43,419 nucleotides of DNA from a virus, in the IMG/VR virus record IMGVR_UViG_3300030098_002230, positions 1-43,419 of that record. One strand, given 5' to 3'. Below the pieces are notes generated by a model. The model saw only the letters and a program-made list of their open reading frames with translations. It made no database searches and was not told the DNA's origin. Of the stretch, positions 28,941 to 35,784 are shown piece by piece. A program made the translations under genes and the position numbers. Each line of letters begins with the position of its first letter. Position 1 is the stretch's first letter.

Positions 28941-29346
28941 TATGATATCCTCCTTTATGTCTTCTACCTATTGTACCACCAACTTTTTGTTTGGTAGCTA
29001 GAATAGCATTTTTCTTTGCCATGCCATTCTCTATTTTTTTCTTTATACTTTCTTTCCACTCTTCTATTTTTTTCTTTCTACTTAGAATTTGAGTTAAAAG
29101 TTTTTTTATAACGTAATTAGAATCTCTCCCTGCTAGATGGCATACGAATCTAAAGTCTCTGCCTCCTCCTTCGATCCAGTTAATAGCACTGAGAGCTTCG
29201 TCGTAATCAGATGTATAAATAGCATCATCAACAGCCTTAGCCAAAACAGCAGTCCATAATAACTCTTCGGGTTCCTTTCTATCTCCAAAGATTTCTATAG
29301 CGTTATTATTTGCCGTTCCTTGACTTCTGAAGTTTGATCTTGCCAT
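28876..29346 (-). CDS. Conserved phage hypothetical protein
   Basis: 156 residues. ELLWTAVLAKAVDDAIYT, EALSAINWIEGGGRDFRFVCHLAGRDSNYVIKK, then a Lys-rich helix and a basic Gly/His-rich tail (GRRHKGGYHSGKRWGRKWH). The AINWIE...DFRFVC-LAGRD block recurs in marine phages without assigned function, to my memory. The basic tail suggests nucleic-acid binding. Overlaps neighbours at both ends. Confidence 0.6.
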   Translation of the reverse strand: MARSNFRSQGTANNNAIEIFGDRKEPEELLWTAVLAKAVDDAIYTSDYDEALSAINWIEGGGRDFRFVCHLAGRDSNYVIKKLLTQILSRKKKIEEWKESIKKKIENGMAKKNAILATKQKVGGTIGRRHKGGYHSGKRWGRKWHTGTQASNQTLQ

Positions 29347-32140: not shown

Positions 32141-32663
32141 TTTTTAATCTTGGGTCATTCATTATTACCACATCTGGATTATCTTTCAAATACTGCTTTT
32201 TAAGTACAGTCCAGTAACTCACTTTGGGATCAAAATCCCTATCTCCATTGAAGTGAGAAGCAGACATAACTCCTACTTTCATACACATATTGATTAATTC
32301 AGCAAATTCTGCAGGCGGAGGACTGATTCTAGGTACTCTTTTACACTCTTTAATAACCTCTAATTGAGTCTTAATCTTCATTTGTTTTTCTTGTTCTTCT
32401 ACAAATTCATCTGTGCATGCCGAACCCAAATATTTTCTGTATGTAAACCTTAACATTCTATCATCATCAGTTCCTTCATAATTATTACTAGAACTATAAT
32501 GATTATAGTTATATTGATCATCTCTTTGTTCAACGGAAACTGAAAATTCTCCTTGAGCACATGTGTTTGTGCCATTGTTTAGATATTCGTTTCGGGCTTG
32601 CGCTGTTGTTGAGAACAAAGCAAATAAAGCACTAACGATTAAGATCTTTAATATCGTATTCAT
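32130..32663 (-). CDS. Secreted/periplasmic protein
   Basis: 177 residues with a clear signal peptide (ILKILIVSALFALFSTTAQA, cleavage after AQA-R near residue 23). The mature part has four cysteines (C36, C82 region, C110, C131 region), a Tyr/Asn-rich patch and a proline-rich RISPPPAEF. Related proteins occur beside TM coiled-coil genes in marine phages. Periplasmic role in lysis or exclusion is inferred. Confidence 0.55.
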   Translation of the reverse strand: MNTILKILIVSALFALFSTTAQARNEYLNNGTNTCAQGEFSVSVEQRDDQYNYNHYSSSNNYEGTDDDRMLRFTYRKYLGSACTDEFVEEQEKQMKIKTQLEVIKECKRVPRISPPPAEFAELINMCMKVGVMSASHFNGDRDFDPKVSYWTVLKKQYLKDNPDVVIMNDPRLKNVK

Positions 32664-32949
32664 GTTCTCTTACCTGATCTGCTAGTTGTCTATATAAATT
32701 TTCTGCCATTTCCCATGTTGCCTCTGCTGCTGAAAGTCTTGTTTGTATTCCTGTTACTTTTTCTTTAAGATTTTTAATATCTCTATTTATTTCTGTAAGT
32801 GCGGTCTTATTTTCTTCAATTGTATCTGTTAGATTTAATACATATCTGATAGACGTAAATGTTCCGGCTAAGATAGCTGCTATAACAGGAACAATTACAA
32901 TATTTTTTTTAAGCCATTCAAATTTACTTTGTTTAACTTTTTTAGCCAT
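32632..32949 (-). CDS. One-TM coiled-coil protein (XhlA-like)
   Basis: 105 residues: basic N-terminus (KKVKQSKFEWLKKN), TM IVIVPVIAAILAGTFTSI, then coiled coil (NKTALTEINRDIKNLKEKVT, ALSAAEATWEMAENLYRQL type). Resembles phage holin-accessory or i-spanin-like proteins. It lies directly after a 25-residue lipoprotein, reminiscent of spanin pairs. Confidence 0.5.
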   Translation of the reverse strand: MAKKVKQSKFEWLKKNIVIVPVIAAILAGTFTSIRYVLNLTDTIEENKTALTEINRDIKNLKEKVTGIQTRLSAAEATWEMAENLYRQLADQVREHEYDIKDLNR

Positions 32950-33019
32950 TGAACCCTACACATCCTGTAATTCCAGCAAAAATAATAACTAAACACAATA
33001 CGACTATTAACCAGTTCAT
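32942..33019 (-). CDS. 25-residue lipoprotein
   Basis: MNWLIVVLCLVIIFAGITGC then VGFNG: almost only a lipoprotein signal with lipobox ITGC. AGGA at 8 nt upstream supports the ATG at 33019; the frame is open further upstream, but that part is covered by the Cys-rich gene ending 5 nt before. One of three micro-lipoproteins in the accessory region. Confidence 0.5.
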   Translation of the reverse strand: MNWLIVVLCLVIIFAGITGCVGFNG

Positions 33020-33023
33020 AATT

Positions 33024-33194
33024 TTAATCCTGATCCTCGCTTGTTGTTCCCTGATTTGTGCTCGTCTCATCAACTCCTTCAGAGTTTTGAATCCTATCAT
33101 TTTCGCACTCGCAATCTTCACACTTACAGCCATCGTGATCGGCTTCCATGCAATGACATAAATGTCCGCATTCCTTGCAGGTTTTTTCCGTCAT
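33024..33194 (-). CDS. Metallothionein-like Cys-rich protein
   Basis: 56 residues: MTEKTCKECGHLCHC, then HDGCKCEDCECEND. Eight cysteines and several His lie within residues 6-30 as CxxC, CxC, CxCxxCxC. This density fits a metal-binding mini-protein (zinc or copper). The C-terminal half is acidic and disordered. It is encoded between a 25-residue basic peptide and a 25-residue lipoprotein. Confidence 0.6.
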   Translation of the reverse strand: MTEKTCKECGHLCHCMEADHDGCKCEDCECENDRIQNSEGVDETSTNQGTTSEDQD

Positions 33195-33203
33195 AAACTA
33201 ACC

Positions 33204-33281
33204 TTACTTATTAAATTTACTATATTGTGCTACGATCCAATTAGAAATTTTTCTAAAGAATCTTTTAATTTTTATCATCAT
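33204..33281 (-). CDS. 25-residue basic amphipathic peptide
   Basis: MMIKIKRFFRKISNWIVAQY then SKFNK: a strongly amphipathic basic helix. GAGGAT precedes the ATG at about 8 nt. It overlaps the end of the 218-residue gene by 17 nt. Membrane-active or regulatory peptide possible; no family recognised. Confidence 0.45.
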   Translation of the reverse strand: MMIKIKRFFRKISNWIVAQYSKFNK

Positions 33282-33921
33282 ATTTTTTATCCTCAATATC
33301 ATAAAAGAACTTATCCGTATCAGCAGTTCTCCATTCACGACTATCTTCTACACTCCATACCTGGTGATTAACTTTCCAATCAGGTATTTCATCCCTTACC
33401 GTAAAAGAAGGGATATGCCACAATATTCTATTATTTGGCTGAGCTGCATAATTGCCGTCGTCTAAAGCCATTATGTGAGCACATTTGTGCTCTTGCGGAA
33501 CTTCAGAATGATCCGTATCTACTATATTACTATCTGGATGAGCCCAGTCAACCGTAAAAAGATAAGATCCGGTATGCCATTTCCCATCTTTTCCCCAGTA
33601 TTTCCCAGCTACAGTTAATGCATCGTAGACAGTAATAGCAGGATAATAACTGAAACAATTCCAAAGCTCCAACTCGTCAAGTCTAGGCCTAGGAACGTTT
33701 TTGACATCAAACCCGTTTTGAACAAACGCTGTAATTGGAAGACGATAGTAGACCCCACCATTTTGCATAATTGCATGAAAGAGTAAAGCGCGCCCTGGCA
33801 TCGATGTAATGCCAAAAACCATGCAGTCTTCAGCCTCTCCTTCGTGCTGTTCGAGATCATAAAGATATTCGCGTCTTATTTGACAATAGATAACGGGTAT
33901 ATTTACATTTAAATATGCCAT
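33265..33921 (-). CDS. Conserved phage hypothetical protein
   Basis: 218 residues, beta-rich: NVNIPVIYCQIRREYLYD, CMVFGITSMPGRALLFHAIMQNGGVYYRLPI, and RILWHIPSFTVRDEIPDWKVN. I recall this family directly downstream of polA in marine phages, with no known function. Ten nt separate it from the polymerase gene, so it belongs to the replication operon. Confidence 0.65.
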   Translation of the reverse strand: MAYLNVNIPVIYCQIRREYLYDLEQHEGEAEDCMVFGITSMPGRALLFHAIMQNGGVYYRLPITAFVQNGFDVKNVPRPRLDELELWNCFSYYPAITVYDALTVAGKYWGKDGKWHTGSYLFTVDWAHPDSNIVDTDHSEVPQEHKCAHIMALDDGNYAAQPNNRILWHIPSFTVRDEIPDWKVNHQVWSVEDSREWRTADTDKFFYDIEDKKYDDKN

Positions 33922-33930
33922 AGTTAAACC

Positions 33931-35784
33931 TCATTTTATTTCGCCCCAGTTTTTACCAAACTCATAATCTACTTTGTTAGGAACTTCAAGTTCTACAGCA
34001 CCTTCCATAATATCTTTTATTCTTTGTGCTTCTTTTTCAGAACCAATAGAAATATCTAATTCATCATGAACTTGTACATGAGGTATTATACCTTCTTTAT
34101 GCAATTCAATCATTGCTTTTTTTGTCATATCTGCCGCAGATCCTTGTATTAATCTATTTAAAGCTTTGTATGTATAAGCTCTTCTGATCCCTGGTCCGTG
34201 CTCCGCGAGCGCTGCATCATGTGGTAATGGCTTGTGGATACCGAACTGATTTGGTTCCCATAAATGGAACCTACAAAGTCGACCCAAAAGAGTTCTAACT
34301 TTACCGGCACCTTGAGCTCTGGCCATAACAGCATCCATAAGTTGTTTAACAAATGGAACTTTAGAATGATATTGTTTGAATAGAGATTCCGCTTGAAGTT
34401 TATTTACACCAAGCTCTGCTTGTAATTTATTTTTACCCATACCATAAAACAATCCTAAGTTAATTGTCTTGGCTTGAGTTCTAGGAATGTCAGCCATATC
34501 AGCCACAATCTGGTGGAAATCTGCATCTCCTTCTAGATATGCATGTACTACTTCATCTACACCATACAAATTTTGTAGTGATGCATAGTGTACAACTAAT
34601 CTTGGTTCTTGTTGGTTGTAATCAAAACAACCCCAAGTATGATCTTGTTCCGGAATAAATAATGATCTGATCCGTGGTCCGAGTTCCTTATTCCTTGCAG
34701 GTATCTGCTGTAAGTTTGGATTATTCATACTGAATCTTCCGGTTACAGTTCCACCACCCTCGGCTCTTAGTTGATTAATCTCTGCGTGGATTCTTCCTTT
34801 GTGTGAGTATTTCAATATTGTATCTATAAACGTAGTGTGAGCTTTATTAATCTCTCTAGCCTTAGCTATTTTTTGAACTACTGGATGTGAGTGATTAGCT
34901 AAAAAGTTTTTAGTAAATGAAGGAGCTTGCGTCTTGAGAGTTCGTTCATAAGGAAGTTTAAGTTTATCAAAAGCTTTAGCAATAGATCTTGCAGCCCAGA
35001 TCTGTACATCTATACCCGTACTTGTTAACACCTCATGAAGTAATTTTTTCTCTTGTTCTACTAATGTTTTCTTTTCTTTCGCTGCTTGTTCTTGATTTAC
35101 ACGTACACCGAGAAACCTCATATCAACTAAAACGGGAAACAACTCTGTTTCCATATCGAATATAGATTGAATATCCTGATGTAAAATTTGCTTTTTCATT
35201 TCCTGCCACAACTCCAATGTGAGTTGGGCGTCACGCTCCGCGTAAGCTCCAACGTACATGGCTGGAAGTTTGTACATCTCGGCTTTAGCATCTACTCCCC
35301 ATGACTTGGCTGCTTCATATAGTGCTGCTTCGTCTTTTCCTTTACCTACATAATCTCTAGATAAACTATTTAAATCATAACGTAATCTATTCTCGTCAAC
35401 TAAACTGGATGCAATCATTGTATCAATAACCTTTCCTTGAACTGTAATACCAATGGCTCTTAACCAACAAATATCATACATTGCATTGTGAAATATTTTT
35501 ATAGAATCAGAATTCATTTGGTCCTGTAACCATTTAAGAACCATCTTACGATCCATGTTGCCACCACCTTCGTGAGCTATTGGATAATAAGCACACCAAT
35601 CGTGCGTGGCTAAAGAAATTCCTACAACATCTCCTACGCCTACAACAGAACCAGAACCCATTCTTTCATTAAGGTTTGGGTCTTTTGTTTCTAAGTCTAT
35701 TGCTATTTCATCATATTTAGATAGGTCTGGAAAATCTGTAGGTGGGATCCATTCTGTTTGTGGTTTAAATAAAGGTGTTTGCAT
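33931..35784 (-). CDS. polA: Family A DNA polymerase with 3'-5' exonuclease
   Basis: 617 residues, size of phage T7-type enzymes. The exonuclease domain starts with EIAIDLETKD (D-x-E, ~26-33) and has AERDAQLTLELW (ExoIII, ~182). Polymerase motifs: A CFDYNQQEPRLV (~382), B RTQAKTINLGLFYGMG (~434), C HVQVHDELD (~567), with both catalytic aspartates present. The residue equal to E. coli Phe762 is leucine. No 5' nuclease domain. It replicates the phage genome together with the primase and helicases upstream. Two RTCCRTG heptads fall in its codons (34187, 34670). Confidence 0.93.
   Translation of the reverse strand: MQTPLFKPQTEWIPPTDFPDLSKYDEIAIDLETKDPNLNERMGSGSVVGVGDVVGISLATHDWCAYYPIAHEGGGNMDRKMVLKWLQDQMNSDSIKIFHNAMYDICWLRAIGITVQGKVIDTMIASSLVDENRLRYDLNSLSRDYVGKGKDEAALYEAAKSWGVDAKAEMYKLPAMYVGAYAERDAQLTLELWQEMKKQILHQDIQSIFDMETELFPVLVDMRFLGVRVNQEQAAKEKKTLVEQEKKLLHEVLTSTGIDVQIWAARSIAKAFDKLKLPYERTLKTQAPSFTKNFLANHSHPVVQKIAKAREINKAHTTFIDTILKYSHKGRIHAEINQLRAEGGGTVTGRFSMNNPNLQQIPARNKELGPRIRSLFIPEQDHTWGCFDYNQQEPRLVVHYASLQNLYGVDEVVHAYLEGDADFHQIVADMADIPRTQAKTINLGLFYGMGKNKLQAELGVNKLQAESLFKQYHSKVPFVKQLMDAVMARAQGAGKVRTLLGRLCRFHLWEPNQFGIHKPLPHDAALAEHGPGIRRAYTYKALNRLIQGSAADMTKKAMIELHKEGIIPHVQVHDELDISIGSEKEAQRIKDIMEGAVELEVPNKVDYEFGKNWGEIK
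34187..34207 (+). repeat. RTCCRTG heptad repeat in polA (three units)
   Basis: Plus strand ATCCCTG, GTCCGTG, CTCCGCG. It encodes (minus strand) AEHGPGIRR, a conserved stretch just before the YKALNRLIQGSAAD block of the polymerase, so the repeat is realised by codon choice rather than an added segment. Confidence 0.6.
34670..34690 (+). repeat. RTCCRTG heptad repeat in polA (three units)
   Basis: Plus strand ATCCGTG, GTCCGAG, TTCCTTA. It encodes NKELGPRIRS, directly after the conserved NPNLQQIPA block. Second copy within the same gene and same orientation, 480 bp from the first. Confidence 0.6.

Follow-up and report, generated by a model that had tools for sequence, protein, structure and literature searches.

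The question raised by this locus is whether a reading frame of 56 codons, crowded with cysteines and overlapped by longer frames, is a real phage gene and, if so, what its product does with so many potential metal ligands. The window, by which we mean the whole 43,419-nt stretch analysed, carries this ORF on the minus strand from ATG to TAA (33024-33194; MTEKTCKECGHLCHCMEADHDGCKCEDCECENDRIQNSEGVDETSTNQGTTSEDQD), as read from the translation and from coding conservation in relatives; AAGG, a weak Shine-Dalgarno-like site in the sequence, lies 8-11 nt 5' of the ATG (33202..33205, minus strand). Its eight cysteines fall within 25 residues as CxxC, CxC and CxCxxCxC, exactly as the first-pass annotation had it. 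They sit in residues 6-30, the candidate metal-binding head (CKECGHLCHCMEADHDGCKCEDCEC; 33105..33179, minus strand), whose sites are conserved as Cys or His, and they make up 14% of the protein and 32% of the head. Three histidines bring the head to 11 candidate ligands, and the protein contains no F, W or Y. The density of cysteines deserves the word "extreme" that had been applied to it: eight per 25 open-frame residues are seen within the window only at this ORF and in none of 60 dinucleotide shuffles of the window, where the maximum was seven.

The frame had also been described as hidden under a longer, probably false ORF, which holds in part. Two longer ORFs do overlap it, an antisense one of 70 aa (32949-33161, plus strand), for which we found no support, and a same-strand one of 63 aa (32942-33133), which is probably only partly false. 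The latter overlaps the 56-aa protein from residue 21 on, and its frame is also open in two relatives (L002 and L004). The 25 codons at its end (MNWLIVVLCLVIIFAGITGCVGFNG, from near 33019) begin just past the stop of the cysteine-rich gene and form a tiny membrane/lipoprotein-like ORF directly downstream (32942..33019, minus strand). The acidic hydrophilic tail of the window protein (residues 31-56; 33027..33104, minus strand), delimited by alignment, tail scan and frame comparison, may be partly a by-product of this overlap, since it resembles the tail of a degenerate second ORF in L004 and runs across another open frame.

Comparison with relatives indicates that the ORF is a real phage gene under protein-level selection, as judged from synonymous TGT/TGC swaps at invariant cysteines. 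Relatives were collected from IMG/VR by a protein scan (13 loci) and a small-alignment scan (80 loci), and in more than 100 contigs they keep all eight cysteines with such swaps. Among the matches listed, 117 distinct core DNAs have eight of eight cysteines invariant with both codons in use at every one of them, and differences by codon position amount to 0.24, 0.24 and 0.51. Against the nearest relative (L002), 17 codons differ, of which ten are synonymous, including four cysteine codons, and no difference changes a Cys or His. The first-pass annotation had proposed conservation of the cysteines as the check on its reading, free variation being what would count against it; in 74 aligned members all eight are invariant, while almost every non-ligand position varies. 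Searching with CGHLCHC or TGY/CAY as the pattern is biased toward the sites queried, and two further sets are free of most of this bias. The first used a Cys-only DNA pattern, many of whose matches in viral contigs were low-complexity Cys runs and were excluded; a histidine at site 9 (counted from the first cysteine) is present in 23 of 23 real members among the matches listed. The second comprises 60 loci picked solely by their upstream neighbour, phrog_3704: a full head follows 1-219 nt downstream of the neighbour in 39, a seven-Cys head in three and another ORF with four or more Cys in three. At 15 of these loci nothing Cys-rich occupies the slot, and the gene is therefore not universal there. 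In 610 kb of control strand there were only two motif matches.

The head itself follows a fixed layout, C1xxC4x[H/C]6xC8H9C10, a spacer of 6-13 residues and CxCxxCxC, with a His or Cys five residues past C10 (site 15). Of 194 distinct cores among the matches listed, 175 have a Cys or a His at every one of the 11 sites, 100 of these being Cys8His3 and 75 Cys9His2. Over the 194 cores, again among the matches listed, site 6 is His in 137, Cys in 56 and Asp in one, and site 15 is His in 153 and Cys in 23; in the 175 filled cores the pairs at sites 6 and 15 are H/H in 97, C/H in 56, H/C in 22 and C/C in none. The neighbour-selected set has 11 sites filled in 40 of 44 distinct cores, Cys 25 and His 19 at site 6, His at site 9 in 44 of 44, and His 38 and Cys 2 at site 15, all of these ligand-site counts being inflated by kinship among the sequences. 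Column entropy is 0 at the cysteines and His9 versus 0.9-2.9 bits at non-ligand positions, and the 194 cores (among matches listed) are about 2% aromatic and 14% hydrophobic, with next to no hydrophobic interior. AlphaFold2, run with no metal, reached a pLDDT of 59 and gave no confident apo fold. The exchange of His and Cys at sites 6 and 15 is a signature of metal ligands, and metal binding by the head is strongly implied by these patterns. With invariant cysteines and His/Cys exchange at two further sites, the earlier description of the product as metallothionein-like is supported and probably right. Some contigs (L026, L060, L363) carry two such genes, and one paralogue type in this group, CHCGLSAGCQCDC, has a Cys at site 16 in place of the His at 15.

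Searches of Pfam, NCBIfam, PHROGs and PADLOC returned no family for the protein, and a PDB sequence search returned chance matches only. The nearest known system is that of SmtA/BmtA, PF02069 or Metallothio_Pro (PDB 1JJD; Pseudomonas metallothioneins 6gv6/6gv7/6grv). Bacterial metallothioneins bind 3-4 Zn extremely tightly (PMC10612145), and SmtA has a Zn4Cys9His2 core (PMC10119931). The phage protein is like SmtA in its length of about 56 aa, its CxCxxCxC element, the presence of His among the candidate ligands and an often hydrophilic tail. Both have 11 candidate ligands, Cys9His2 in SmtA and Cys8His3 or Cys9His2 in the phage heads, an equality that is a resemblance and says nothing on relationship. 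The two differ in that CxCxxCxC is C-terminal in the phage head but N-terminal in SmtA, and the phage protein lacks the YCSxAC zinc-finger part; the PF02069 test pattern, which goes on to a C-terminal Cys/His motif ending in CxC, is not found in it. The PF02069 profile, which recovers SmtA at E=4.5e-21 as a positive control, matches neither the window protein at E<=10 nor any of the 74 members at E<=1, and hhalign against it aligned 12 columns (CxCxxCxC only) with a probability of 2.3%. We also considered a rearranged SmtA, for which there was no support past the CxCxxCxC element. On these profile comparisons the phage protein stands outside the SmtA/PF02069 family. CxC/CxxC arrays, eight or nine thiolates and few hydrophobic residues recall eukaryote metallothioneins (beta domain, Cys9), from which the phage head differs by its conserved His; their profiles gave no sequence match among the 74 members, the best being a single member against Metallothio_5 at E=0.47. 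What the protein shares with metallothioneins in the broad functional sense is small size, Cys-richness, CxC plus CxxC arrays, few or no aromatics, and conserved Cys/His ligands among variable positions. We found no report of phage metallothioneins in the open literature searched, and earlier reports in subscription journals are possible.

The gene lies in a compact operon that reads primase, helicase, a nucleotide-kinase-like small gene, DNA polymerase A, the phrog_3704 gene, the metallothionein-like gene, the tiny membrane ORF and a membrane coiled-coil gene. The polymerase (33931..35784, minus strand) is closest to those of phage 023Pt_psg01 (63%) and of Pelagibacter phages HTVC027P (58%) and HTVC023P (53%), so that the window phage is a relative of HTVC023P-type pelagiphages, from which we infer a SAR11 host. 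The upstream neighbour (33265..33921, minus strand) belongs to phrog_3704 (E=3.9e-69) and gave no match in Pfam; PHROGs names it "ferredoxin" and pelagiphage records call it "PurM", but no good fit is obvious for either label. Downstream, a 105-aa membrane-anchored coiled-coil protein (32632..32949, minus strand) has weak Rz-like spanin matches (phrog_739, E=8e-4; phrog_89, E=0.035). It adjoins the lipoprotein-like 25-aa ORF (together 32632-33019), and a spanin-like pair near the polymerase is possible.

Beyond the window, the protein belongs to a very large, overlooked marine-phage family that is common in relatives of SAR11 phages. HTVC023P-type phages form one group: in a total of 140 distinct head loci among the matches listed, the neighbour clusters number 83 (polymerase) and 54 (phrog_3704) members, and in HTVC023P a copy without annotation directly follows the phrog_3704 gene (L300:3001-3081, record 29068-29148). 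Autographiviridae of SAR11 form a second group: Gjalp gp42 and Eyrgjafa gp29 are named "hypothetical protein", HTVC041P (L469) and KT997847.1 (L301) carry the gene without annotation, and in all four it lies just upstream of the capsid gene. Of the phages with a member, HTVC023P, Gjalp, Eyrgjafa and HTVC041P are cultured phages of SAR11. A third group, with Cys at site 15, occurs in contigs with AMG-rich neighbourhoods that, read from neighbour genes, are probably T4-like phages. In another phage group (L119, L127, L152, L165, L212, L232, L234, L236, L250) the gene adjoins one for a phrog_7084 protein, which also occurs in haloarchaeal tailed viruses; genes nearby resemble, by eye, a Rieske-type oxygenase, a carbamoyltransferase and an ABC substrate-binding protein. 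No relative turned up when 84,980 cellular genomes were scanned in two ways, so that the family is apparently virus-only within their reach; the sole exact-spacing match, in a Ruminococcus MAG, is a Cys-run translation artefact. A first tblastn of the phage collection matched only mycobacteriophage transposases (E>=3, chance), and variant sequences as queries found the Pelagibacter phages. HTVC033P, matched via a tail motif in a DUF3310 protein and not via a head, was left uncounted, and the human-gut phage match H110 was rejected as having no head.

Taken together, the best reading of these sequences would be a phage metallothionein-like binder of Zn (or Cu(I)) with swappable tails. With somewhat better than even confidence, we take the product of the gene to be a small protein of this kind, presumably cytoplasmic, whose head would hold a Zn/Cu(I) cluster and buffer metal during infection. 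At the C-terminus, the majority of pelagiphage-type members carry the tag VVDDTxxCExCQ, which the window protein lacks. A scan for the tag alone retrieved 80 distinct ORFs (L378-L467 set), all ending in it, with a full head in 56, a seven-Cys head in 17, a CHC-type head in one and another or no head in six. Besides metallothionein-like heads, its carriers include unrelated CysCys/His heads (CSTHTKEKEKSGTCC) and one head-less ORF (L388, L416, L450, L460). The tag behaves as a swappable tail. Other tails comprise an aromatic amphipathic helix (L322, L349, L351, L363), FWK(I/V)MS, SYENEVKYD and EDIPSSFTxPNT. The N-terminus of the DUF3310 protein of HTVC033P (gp29, L470:2498-2797) shares SYENE(V/I)xYD with such tails, which suggests gene-boundary shuffling.

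Heads may also be reduced. In HTVC025P gp32 (L474:2249-2425) and Fussvirus S30C28, CxCxxCxC is all that is left of the head; the reduced proteins of L474 and of L473 (near 2219) bear a related FW-type tail and are encoded directly ahead of the capsid gene. In L004 (2882-3322) and L005, an intact gene is followed by a second ORF with a window-like tail, whose head is missing its N-terminal half and has one further Cys replaced by Tyr. HTVC027P gp12, a zinc-ribbon-like CxxC...CxxCxC protein, shares the slot after phrog_3704 and has CxxCGH at its front and CxxCxC at its back. Unlike the phage head with its eight cysteines, it has five, lacks the CHC and CxC pairs and gives weak Lar/Zn-ribbon matches, whereas zinc ribbon, Lar-like and DksA-like profiles gave no match for the window protein and none convincing among the 74 members. 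The reduced heads argue against metal storage as the sole role: a store should not be expected to shrink so far, which in some lineages speaks for a structural or adaptor function. That His9 is invariant and the tails are conserved also hints at a specific partner.

These features lend some weight to a zinc-cluster adaptor, in which the metals would be structural and head plus tail would bind or redirect a host or phage protein (e.g. RNA polymerase, a protease or a membrane site). Consistent with it are a tag that closes every scanned ORF, nearly always behind a Cys-rich head, that also occurs with unrelated Cys heads or with no head at all (L388, L450), and that has alternatives in the aromatic amphipathic helix (L322, L349, L351) and the FWK(I/V)MS segment; tails are moreover retained on reduced heads. 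Nevertheless, the near-free variation of non-ligand head residues and a spacer of such variable length are not what a fixed binding surface usually shows, tails vary among phage groups, and the window protein is without the common tag. We therefore consider the adaptor possible but rather doubtful. Theft of metal, in which the protein would benefit the phage by depriving host enzymes or defence proteins of Zn or Cu, is improbable: binding as tight as that of bacterial metallothioneins (PMC10612145) would suit it, but it has no known target, no defence-linked genes were noticed beside the gene, and there was no PADLOC match of note. Among buffering, metal competition and a redox sink, the three roles first proposed, the last is the least favoured. 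Eight thiols per 56 residues and a terminal CxxC in most relatives would fit cysteines that act mainly by oxidation and shield phage or host proteins. However, conserved His sites and replacement of Cys by His with a steady ligand total fit metal coordination and are unexpected for thiol chemistry, which leaves the redox sink very unlikely. Finally, a chance ORF under another gene, for which the overlap of the tail with a 63-aa frame also open in L002 and L004 might speak, is refuted for the head by conservation, synonymous substitution, synteny and the shuffles, and hardly merits belief.

Returning to the metal-buffering metallothionein-like protein, the head would fold around about 3-4 d10 metal ions, as bacterial metallothioneins do, most likely Zn(II), with Cu(I) or Cd(II) possible. 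The protein would be made during infection, from a gene beside replication genes in the window phage or beside the capsid gene in other phages. With less certainty, it may buffer metal released by the breakdown of host proteins and ribosomes, in a host presumably poor in metal-detoxification genes; it may also pass metal to phage zinc proteins, and certain tails may tether the head to a partner or membrane. Much of a bacterium's zinc sits in ribosomes. Detoxification genes are few in Pelagibacter (PMC4161860), and after pelagiphage infection some cells are ribosome-deprived, without detectable ribosomal RNA (PMC11066056). The link between ribosomal zinc and the phage protein is offered as a hypothesis only, and it is weakened by HTVC027P and HTVC031P, the phages of observed ribosome loss, which are without a full head. 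More tentatively, the family may constitute a virus-only class of metallothioneins unrelated to cellular ones and spread over three marine-phage groups (HTVC023P-type podoviruses, Autographiviridae of SAR11 and probably T4-like phages), which would manage metal freed by dismantling of the host proteome and ribosomes, the tails sending the cluster to different cell sites.

To conclude, the new points are how large the family is, that it is confined to phages, that His and Cys exchange in the head, that the gene keeps to a fixed genomic slot and that the tails are modular. Far from being peculiar to this phage, the window gene belongs to a marine-phage family of very large size. If its members bind metal, a gene present in some two thirds of the loci sampled would make metal handling a regular part of infecting the commonest marine bacteria. 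It also makes testable the question of whether a phage must manage zinc (or copper) while dismantling a cell.
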